Shown here piece after piece: positions 34,100 to 42,031 of a DNA stretch of 64,000 bases (positions are counted from its first letter, which is position 1; every line of letters starts with the position of its first letter). A program made the translations under genes and the position numbers. The notes below the pieces were generated by a model. That model was not told the DNA's origin. It searched no databases and worked only from the letters and a program-made list of their open reading frames with translations. The stretch comes from Brevibacterium linens ATCC 9172 (GTDB lineage Bacteria > Actinomycetota > Actinomycetes > Actinomycetales > Brevibacteriaceae): contig NZ_FXYY01000001.1 of assembly GCF_900169165.1 (NCBI RefSeq), positions 248,001-312,000 on the forward strand, given 5' to 3'.

Positions 34100-35314
34100 A
34101 TGACCGATTTGAGCCAGGAGACAGGACCGTACTTCGGCGAGTTCGGAGGCAGGTTCATCGCCGAAGCGCTGATCCCGGCGCTCGACGAGATCGAAGAGAC
34201 CTGGCGCAAGTCCCAGGTGGACCCGGCCTTCACCGACGAACTGCTCACCCTGCAGCGCAACTACATCGGCCGTCCCTCTCTGCTCACCGAGGCCACTCGC
34301 TTCGCCGAGCACTGCGGTGGGGCGCGCGTGTTCCTCAAACGCGAAGATCTCAACCACACGGGCAGCCACAAGATCAACAACGCACTGGCTCAGGCGCTGC
34401 TGGCGAAGCGGATGGGCAAGACCCGTCTCATCGCCGAGACCGGAGCCGGTCAGCACGGAGTCGCGACGGCGACAGCGGCGGCCCTGCTCGACATGTCCTG
34501 TGTGGTCTACATGGGTGAGGAGGACACCCAGCGTCAGGCTCTCAACGTCGCGCGCATGCGTCTGCTCGGCGCCACGGTCAACGCCGTGACCAACGGCACG
34601 CGCACGCTCAAGGACGCGATGAATGAAGCCCTGCGCGACTGGGTGGCCAACGTCGACGACACCCACTACGTCATCGGCACGGTCGCCGGCCCCCACCCGT
34701 TCCCGGCGATGGTCCGCTCGTTCCAGAAGGTCATCGGCATCGAAGCGCGCGAGCAGATCCAGGAGCTGGCCGGCCGTCTGCCCGATGCCGTCTGCGCCTG
34801 CGTGGGCGGCGGATCGAACGCGATGGGACTCTTCGCCGCATTCCTGTCCGATGCCGATGTGAAGATCTACGGCTTCGAAGCCGGCGGCGAAGGAGTCGAC
34901 ACCGGCCATCACGCCGCTCGGTTCTCCGGGGGGCGCCCGGGCGTCCTCCACGGCTCGGCCACCTACATCCTCCAGGACTCCGACGGACAGACCCTGGCCT
35001 CCCATTCGGTCTCCGCCGGCCTCGACTACCCGTCGGTCGGTCCCGAACACTCCCACCTCCACGACACCGGCCGGGTGACCTACCAACCTGTCGTCGACGA
35101 CGAGGCGATGGAGGCCATGCGGCTTCTTTCCCGCACCGAAGGCATCATCCCCGCCATCGAATCCGCCCACGCTCTGGCCGGGGCCATGCGCATCGGCCGT
35201 GAGCTCGGACCCGATGCGGTCCTGCTGGTCAATCTCTCCGGCCGCGGCGACAAGGACATGACGACCGCCGCGAAATGGTTCGACTACATCGACGAAGGAG
35301 CGGTGCAGGTATGA
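34100..35314 (+). CDS. trpB: Tryptophan synthase beta subunit
   Basis: PLP enzyme that joins indole and serine. The 404-residue protein starts [18 protein letters not shown]; the PLP lysine is K91 in [11 protein letters not shown], the phosphate loop is GGGSNAMG, and SGRGDKD is near the end. The SD GAGAAGG at 34086-34092 fixes the start. It follows trpC after a 126-nt gap with a hairpin, the largest gap in the trp unit, and overlaps trpA by 4 nt. Confidence 0.97.
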
Positions 35315-36102
35315 CGCACGCAGGCCCACGCACAGGAACCACCCTCGACGCCGTCGCCGAGGCGGGCCGCAAGGCCGCGCTCATCGCCTACCTGCCGGTC
35401 GGCTTCCCCACTGTGGCGGGATCGACCGAGGCCATGGTCGAACTCGTCCGCAGCGGCGTCGACATCATCGAGGTCGGCATGCCCTACTCCGATCCCGGAA
35501 TGGACGGACCCGTCATCCAGCGTGCCGGTGAGACTGCCTTGGCCAACGGGGTGCGCACCGCGGACATCTTCACCGCAATCGAAGCCATTGCCGACGCCGG
35601 CGGCACCGCCGTCGTCATGAGCTACTGGAACCTCGTGCTCCAGTACGGCATCGACAGCTTCGCCCGCGATCTCGCCTCGGCCGGCGGCGGCGGCATCGTC
35701 ACCCCCGACCTCATCCCCGATGAGGCCGGACCGTGGTTGACGGCGTCGGAGAAGCACGGCCTCGACCGCATCTTCCTCGCCGCACCCTCATCGACGCCCG
35801 AGCGGCTGGCCCGCATCGTCGAGAACAGCTCCGGTTTCGTCTACGCCGCCTCGACCATGGGTGTCACCGGCGTCCGCTCGGAAGTCGACAACCACGCCCG
35901 CGAACTCGTCGCCCGGCTGAAAGAAGCCGGTGCTGAACGCGCCTGCGTCGGCCTGGGCGTGTCGAACCGCGACCAAGCGGCCGAGGTCGCCGAATACGCC
36001 GACGGCGTCATCGTCGGTTCCGCCCTCGTCCGCGCACTGGGCTCCGAGGGAGCGGCCGGGGTCGGTCGACTCGCCGGCGAGCTCGCAGAAGGGTGTGCAT
36101 GA
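35311..36102 (+). CDS. trpA: Tryptophan synthase alpha subunit
   Basis: Splits indole-3-glycerol phosphate to indole, which passes to TrpB. From ATG 35311 it has 263 residues; an upstream in-frame start lies inside trpB. Catalytic E54 and D65 are in [16 protein letters not shown], and GVTGVRSE and VGLGVSN form the phosphate site. Both ends overlap neighbours by 4 nt (ATGA). Confidence 0.96.
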
Positions 36103-37145
36103 GCTTCAGCCCGGCATGGGTCGTCTTCACCGTCCTCGGCATCGGACTCGCACTGTGGATGACAGGCATCCAATGGCGCTCCCGCGGCGGCCACAAGGGA
36201 GACCTGTGGGCCATCACGGTCGTCGGTCTTCCTGCCGCCGTCATCGGCGGGCGGCTCGGCCATCTGATCGCGGCGTCGGACACCTATTTCGGCCCCGCCG
36301 GCGATCCGTTGCGGGCGCTGGCCGTCTGGGACGGGGGCTTCAGCTTCTGGGGAGCGACCATCCTCGGCTTCGTCTCCGTGTGGGTGCTCACCCGCTTCCA
36401 GGGCATCAGGTTCCGACCGCTGCTCGACTCCGTCGCACCGGGACTCATCCTCGGCCACGTCGCCGGTGCCTTCAGCGACTGGTTCGACGGTCGCCTCGAA
36501 CTGGTCACGGTCCTCACCGAATCGGTGTGGAACCTCATCGCCTGCATTGTGCTCATCATCGTCTCCAAGCGCCTCCGGCTCGGCTACGGCCAGGTCTTCG
36601 CCCTCTACCTGTGCCTGTTCGGCCTCGGCCGCATCCTGCTCGAAGCCCTGCGCGTCGGCAGCCCGGCCGCCGAGGATGCACGGCTCCTCCTGGGACTGCC
36701 GTTCAACGTGTGGACGGCCGTCCTCGCCCTGCTCATCGGTCTCTGCTGGCTCGTCGTCTCCCGTCTGCGCCACCGCACCCATGAGACCGGCGTCTACGCG
36801 CACGGATCTCGCACCCTGCTGCGTCGACACCGCCGTGGGAAGCACACCTTCGGGATCAATGCACCCAATATCGCCGAGGCGGCCGAGACCTCCGGAGCTC
36901 CGCTGCCGTCCGTGGCGCGGGTGGCCGACCCCGATGACCGCGCGAGCGCGGACGCGCCCGTCGCCGCGACTGACACCGAGGCTGACGAGATGGAGATCGA
37001 GCGCGAATCAGACATCGATCTCAGCGGTCGCCACAGCTTCGGTTTCTTCGGAGCCGTGACCTCGGCGATCTCGATCGTGCCCGATGTGCGCGGAAATTCG
37101 GCGCCTGCCTCCCACGAAGAGAACCCGCGAAGGTCCAACAAATGA
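36099..37145 (+). CDS. Lgt-like membrane protein lacking the catalytic signature
   Basis: A 348-residue polytopic membrane protein at the position where lgt (prolipoprotein diacylglyceryl transferase) follows trpA in actinobacteria. Framework segments fit Lgt: VIGGRLGHLIAASDTYF, WDGGFSFWGATILG and GRILLEALRVGSP. Key residues do not. The His of the HGG motif is W84, and the 13-residue signature GRxGNxxNxExxG reads GHVAGAFSDWFDG (119-131), so Arg, Asn and Glu are His, Gly and Trp; the N-terminal Tyr region has no Tyr. A charged 110-residue tail follows. It may be a divergent paralogue or an inactive relative. A functional lgt must be elsewhere if this one is inactive. Confidence 0.78.
   Translation: MSFSPAWVVFTVLGIGLALWMTGIQWRSRGGHKGDLWAITVVGLPAAVIGGRLGHLIAASDTYFGPAGDPLRALAVWDGGFSFWGATILGFVSVWVLTRFQGIRFRPLLDSVAPGLILGHVAGAFSDWFDGRLELVTVLTESVWNLIACIVLIIVSKRLRLGYGQVFALYLCLFGLGRILLEALRVGSPAAEDARLLLGLPFNVWTAVLALLIGLCWLVVSRLRHRTHETGVYAHGSRTLLRRHRRGKHTFGINAPNIAEAAETSGAPLPSVARVADPDDRASADAPVAATDTEADEMEIERESDIDLSGRHSFGFFGAVTSAISIVPDVRGNSAPASHEENPRRSNK

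Positions 37146-37330: not shown

Positions 37331-42023
<4,693 letters not shown>

Positions 42024-42031
<8 letters not shown>

Follow-up and report, generated by a model that had tools for sequence, protein, structure and literature searches.

Pseudoenzymes in general combine a dead active site with a kept fold and purifying selection. Our search of the open literature returned no paper on 'pseudoenzyme' together with 'lipoprotein diacylglyceryl transferase', none on Brevibacterium with lgt and trpA, and none on the tail motif described below. The enzyme itself has been dissected in E. coli, where, according to the available text of two studies, Lgt mutants at Y26, R143, N146, G154 and Y235 are inactive; the same two texts disagree on E151 and E243 (PMC4728403, PMC13251419). 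The accessible part of the second describes three departures from the E. coli pattern: Actinobacteria have W in place of H103; M. smegmatis carries a second Lgt copy, MSMEG_5408, with Y26H and N146C, alongside its major Lgt; and Deinococci, Acidimicrobiales and others have Lgt homologues without R143 and R239 (PMC13251419).

We analyzed a 64,000-nucleotide stretch of Brevibacterium linens DNA (the window), in which a gene with an Lgt fold lies between trpA and a downstream neighbor that we take to be gltB (Table 1). At its start codon the frame overlaps the end of trpA by 4 nt. Eight named relatives were found, all in Brevibacterium, with that of B. iodinum at 91% identity. The protein scores 101 bits against PF01790, for which the gathering score is 24.9, and stays under the cut-off of the NCBIfam Lgt equivalog TIGR00544 (56.2 versus 118.9 bits); an intact relative and the second Lgt copy reach 164.6 and 147.8 bits against the same model. 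Across residues 1-230, an AlphaFold2 model made with 34 relatives had confidences of 70-96 in every block but one, which was at 62. When this predicted structure was overlaid on E. coli Lgt, as the earlier note had suggested, the two matched closely (Table 1), and the next entry in the comparison reached a Z of 7.2. Thus, by fold and descent, the gene is an Lgt, and it keeps both the fold and the trp-locus place of the intact Lgts of the genus, as that note had stated.

Table 1. Features of the trp-linked Lgt-fold gene and its neighbors, in window coordinates.
Feature	Position	Strand	Content	Basis
Whole gene	36099..37145	+	348 aa + stop; dead Lgt domain, linker, C-terminal motif	Open frame, ATG overlapping trpA stop
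Lgt-fold membrane domain, residues 1-222	36099..36764	+		PF01790 match; model vs 5azb Z 17.6, rmsd 2.8 over 213 residues
W84 codon, at the position of E. coli H103	36348..36350	+		Alignments; W usual in intact relatives
Lgt signature remnant AGAFSDWFDGR	36462..36494	+	R143, N146, N149 replaced; head deletion follows	
LCLFGLGR	36609..36632	+	Y235 -> F174; R239 retained as R178	
Variable linker, residues 223-312	36765..37034	+	Without confident structure from residue 270	dN/dS 0.37 (residues 223-302)
Conserved C-terminal motif SFGFFGAVTSAISIVPDV, residues 313-330	37035..37088	+		In 57/57 Brevibacterium genomes
trpA	35311..36102	+	Upstream neighbor, stop overlapped by the gene	Sequence
gltB	37331..42031	+	Downstream neighbor	Named from sequence

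What an Lgt enzyme needs is largely missing from this fold. In the alignment, Y26, R143, N146, N149 and Y235 are replaced in all 19 dead-form relatives (Y26 by W, R143 by A, N146 by D or E, N149 by D, A or E, and Y235 by F), the window protein having A124, D127 and D130 at the R143, N146 and N149 positions. The G154 position falls inside a deletion, again in 19/19, that takes away most of the periplasmic head and leaves 9 residues, versus 37-43, between the signature and TM5. The N-terminus of the window protein is shortened as well, and its E151 position is R132 in an ungapped pairing and lies inside the deletion in two other alignments. Some of the conserved positions survive: R239 (R178), E243 (E182) and R246 (R185) in the window protein and, among the dead forms, R239, R246 and W256 in 19/19 and E243 in 18/19. 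The available text of PMC13251419 provides a list of essential residues, from which we left out the sixth, H103, as variable among intact Lgts; in the remaining set (Y26, R143, N146, G154 and R239), four of five are lost in 19/19 genomes and R239 is kept. Judging from these alignments, the gene very probably no longer encodes an Lgt enzyme.

The earlier note had reached a similar view by another argument. It took W84 to replace the catalytic histidine. W84 is indeed aligned with H103 of E. coli, yet a W at this position is no proof of lost catalysis, being normal in intact relatives: it is found in 20 of the 22 sole intact Lgts of the genus (the other 2 have G), in 3/3 from sister genera, and in 17 of 22 other Lgts sampled from the order, where F (3), Y (1) and H (1) make up the rest. 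The intact second Lgt copies have F here in 34/34. We therefore ruled out W84 as a mark of dead catalysis. The signature changes that the note had named, from R, N and E to H, G and W, came from a shifted register, and the register given by our alignments does not restore the signature either, since R143, N146 and N149 are replaced and G154 is deleted. The part of the observation that concerned the gene, its fold and the second Lgt stands, as does the expectation that relatives share the losses, once the true ones are counted. The note had missed the loss of Y26 and Y235, the short N-terminus, the head deletion, the retained R239, E243 and R246, and the tail motif.

Compared with E. coli Lgt (PF01790, 5azb), the window protein has the same fold and R239/E243/R246 but is without Y26, R143, N146, G154, Y235 and most of the head, and it coexists with an intact Lgt in the same genome. 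It resembles MSMEG_5408, as that protein is described in the available text, in being a homologue with altered essential residues beside a major Lgt, but it has lost far more residues and the head, and has a conserved tail motif (PMC13251419). With the Deinococci and Acidimicrobiales homologues, again as described there, it shares the absence of R143; unlike them it keeps R239, and its loss is recent, within one genus, and has intact direct relatives (PMC13251419).

Elsewhere in the window's genome, at C46:5124-5882, lies another Lgt that is intact (211 bits), as the earlier note had predicted. We then compared 57 Brevibacterium genomes, which fall into three states. In state A (22/57), an intact trp-linked Lgt is the sole Lgt; in state B (19/57), the trp-linked Lgt is dead and an intact second Lgt lies elsewhere; and in state C (16/57), the trp locus has no Lgt, with an intact Lgt elsewhere in 15 of the 16. 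For the remaining state-C genome (G049, L082; 89% complete), the PF01790 profile search gave no match, probably because of an assembly gap. There is exactly one intact Lgt per genome in 56/57, and the dead form is accompanied by a second Lgt in 19/19. In an Lgt tree that took in 22 Lgts from outside the family, the dead forms, on a branch of 0.598, were one clade nested among the trp-linked Lgts of Brevibacterium, and the second copies grouped separately, closest to two Lgts from a different family. It is thus the vertically inherited copy that has gone dead, in genomes that possess a different Lgt. The second Lgt lies in one common neighborhood in the state-B and main state-C genomes examined, and in a different neighborhood, common to the three, in G033, G001 and G022 (L087, L088, L089 and L090 versus L025, L026 and L028); the two sites perhaps reflect two arrivals or a move.

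The earlier note had mentioned a long charged tail. The tail is there, but it had been treated as an afterthought, although it holds the most conserved part of the protein: the motif FG[FYS][FY]GA[VM]TS[AT]ISI[VIT]P[DQ][VL]. By profile search, this motif is present in all 57 genomes, one copy each (E < 1e-13), and always in the gene after trpA; in G032, contig ends break this gene in two and leave the motif on the other contig. An intact sole Lgt carries the motif in 22 genomes and the dead Lgt in 19; in the other 16 it belongs to a small membrane protein with a single helix. This distribution argues that the motif, and not lipid transfer, is what is conserved at this locus. The F, G, G, A, T, S, I, S, I and P of the motif are identical in 57/57, with varied codons (for its second residue, G: GGA 28, GGG 13, GGC 12 and GGT 4), and the distance from motif to stop ranges from 8 to 51 residues.

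We found no further copy in the window's genome at E up to 10, and none at E 0.01 in 361 other-genus genomes sampled from the order or in 392 sampled from the class, two samples that overlap in some genomes. Extra weak matches in five genomes of the genus (E 0.017-0.1) were taken as chance. Among three sister-genus genomes, one (G058) has a weak form of the motif: its intact Lgt (L140:1862-3079) ends in HRFGAHGAMTSNIRIVPE, a diverged version with E 0.0015, so the motif may predate the genus. The motif is unmatched in Pfam and NCBIfam searches, its best hit among solved structures has E 2.5, and it is without confident structure in the predicted models of both the window protein and the small form. 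Its amphipathic-helix score, compared with 5000 shuffles, was reached by 146 for the core FFGAVTSAISIV, 457 for the whole 17-mer and 1196 for the Y/T variant.

Two further elements were seen in these tails. About 15-35 residues before the main motif, six of them (L020, L022, L023 and L024 in G030, G021, G024 and G039; L139 in G032; and L077 in G022) have a second element, [IV]GFGP-x-T-x-x-LP-x-[IV], that resembles a faint repeat of it. In the linker of the window protein, GKHTF (window:36837-36851) is similar to the start of the main motif, RHSFG, and takes the form GKH[TID][FY] in the dead forms displayed.

The small forms came to light because genomes that have no Lgt at trp also gave matches to the window protein, in frames of about 107 codons. 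In state C, the gene after trpA encodes one hydrophobic helix, then basic residues, then the C-terminal motif; there is a single helix in 16/16, and the motif lies on whichever side of it is more basic, by a margin of one charge in G022. By the positive-inside rule, the more basic flank of a membrane helix faces the cytoplasm. The motif would therefore be cytoplasmic, in line with the Lgt C-terminus, which we take to lie on that side. Four small forms searched against Pfam gave nothing over cut-off (the best, 20.8 versus 22.3, fell on the membrane helix), and two searched against NCBIfam gave no match. In the predicted small-form structure, the helix is confident and the motif is not. Alignment of the main small-form helix with TM1 of the old Lgt gave a hhalign E of 0.0033 at a probability of 9.7%, a hint only.

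If TrpA and GltB follow the species, then the Lgt domain has been removed at least three times. In a TrpA+GltB tree, with GltB absent for 11 of 60 rows, a single clade of state-C genomes was rejected (p-AU 6e-51), as were groupings of G022 with G001 and G033 (1.5e-6) and of G022 with the main group (8e-8). State B alone as a clade was not rejected (p 0.124), state B with the main state-C group was borderline (p 0.049), and the state-A genomes G006, G034 and G042 were placed among the dead forms with low support. A candidate start overlapping the trpA stop is present in 56/57 genomes, by 4 nt in 44, by 8 nt in 11 and by 17 nt in G001; in G033 we found no candidate start that overlaps it.

In the model that best fits our data, Brevibacterium inherited this gene vertically as its original trp-linked Lgt. 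Where a second Lgt without the tail handles lipoprotein lipidation, the old copy, as its sequence shows, is missing most of its periplasmic head as well as residues for phospholipid binding and catalysis, and yet it remains under purifying selection. Its present job would be to keep the C-terminal peptide FGFFGAVTSAISIVPDV on the cytoplasmic side of the membrane, where the peptide would dock a putative partner, and the amount may be coupled to TrpA translation. On this view the dead Lgt probably serves to anchor, at the membrane, a cytoplasmic docking peptide that is co-produced with TrpA. For the genus as a whole, we lean towards the view that a membrane-tethered cytoplasmic peptide module, first noticed as an Lgt tail, is now the selected function of the trp-locus gene, and that the enzyme part is by this stage just one of several interchangeable anchors. 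As the motif is essentially confined to one genus, recent descent may explain part of its conservation.

To gauge selection, we pooled dN/dS over four regions of the gene; the motif region was set at residues 303-329 and so includes ten variable flanking residues. Among the 12 close state-B genomes, dN/dS is 0.14 for the Lgt domain, 0.064 for the motif region, the lowest of the four, and 0.39 for the last residues (linker, Table 1), with TrpA at 0.092 and the second Lgt at 0.093. Over all 19 dead forms the corresponding values are 0.23 for the domain, 0.49 for the linker, 0.18 for the motif region and 0.49 for the last residues, against 0.16 for TrpA and 0.11 for the second Lgt. Selection thus clearly acts on the dead domain, if less tightly than on the second Lgt, and the view that the gene is not decaying randomly holds. 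With catalytic residues lost, the fold conserved and purifying selection acting, the protein fits the pattern of a pseudoenzyme with a putative non-catalytic role. Two of these values count against the anchor reading: 0.14 in the domain is tighter than a mere anchor needs, and the motif region, over all 19 dead forms, is not below TrpA.

This conservation leaves room for an extra role of the domain's own in state B. The dead Lgt domain could have acquired a new function, as a lipid binder or as a partner or regulator of the second Lgt in trans, with the motif a locus accessory. Such a role would fit the close agreement between the domain value in the 12 genomes and that of the active Lgt domain in the nearest intact group (0.139), as well as the retained R239, R246, W256 and E243 positions and the second Lgt that accompanies every dead form. 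Against it, the domain over all 19 is looser than either TrpA or the second Lgt, and 15 of the 16 small-form genomes have an intact Lgt elsewhere and none at trp, so that the domain is dispensable there. We consider this explanation unlikely. The earlier note had offered a scaffold as one possible new role, which is near what the comparison suggests; it had also offered transfer of a different group, and nothing we found speaks for that.

It seems very improbable that the protein still works as an Lgt, or that it transfers diacylglyceryl to another substrate or by another chemistry. R239, E243 and R246 are retained, and for Lgt homologues of other phyla that are without R143 and R239, the available text of PMC13251419 suggests other substrates or mechanisms. 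Here, however, R143, N146, Y26, Y235 and most of the head have all gone together, and each of the 19 genomes with the dead form also has an intact Lgt.

A decaying pseudogene would account for the long branch at the origin of the dead forms and for their faster change relative to the second copy, but the frame is open in 19/19 genomes and dN/dS is well under 1 in all regions, and we give this reading next to no weight. Just as hard to credit is the idea that the tail codons are conserved as a nucleic-acid element, DNA or RNA, that serves gltB, about 240 nt downstream of the motif near the 3' end of the gene: synonymous codons vary at invariant residues, dS in the motif region (0.34) is similar to that in the remainder of the gene, the distance from motif to stop is variable, there is no Rfam match, and we looked for a promoter- or terminator-like site and found none.

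Returning to the putative docking peptide, its invariant T-x-x-I resembles the pattern that FHA domains recognize once the threonine carries a phosphate. As a bold extension, the motif might couple kinase signaling to the metabolism of amino acids where the trp and glt genes meet.

The window protein is like pseudoenzymes in general in its dead active site, kept fold and purifying selection; it differs in that sister lineages keep the tail motif alone after removal of the enzyme domain. For annotation in Brevibacterium, the gene after trpA should not be called 'lgt' from its place or a Pfam match, as 35/57 genomes are without an intact Lgt there. Collectively, one locus in one genus offers a natural series in which the peptide is joined to an intact enzyme, to a dead enzyme or to a single helix. 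The series suggests that a conserved lipid-modification enzyme can bear a tail function separable from catalysis, and it provides a ready-made route to finding what such a tail does.
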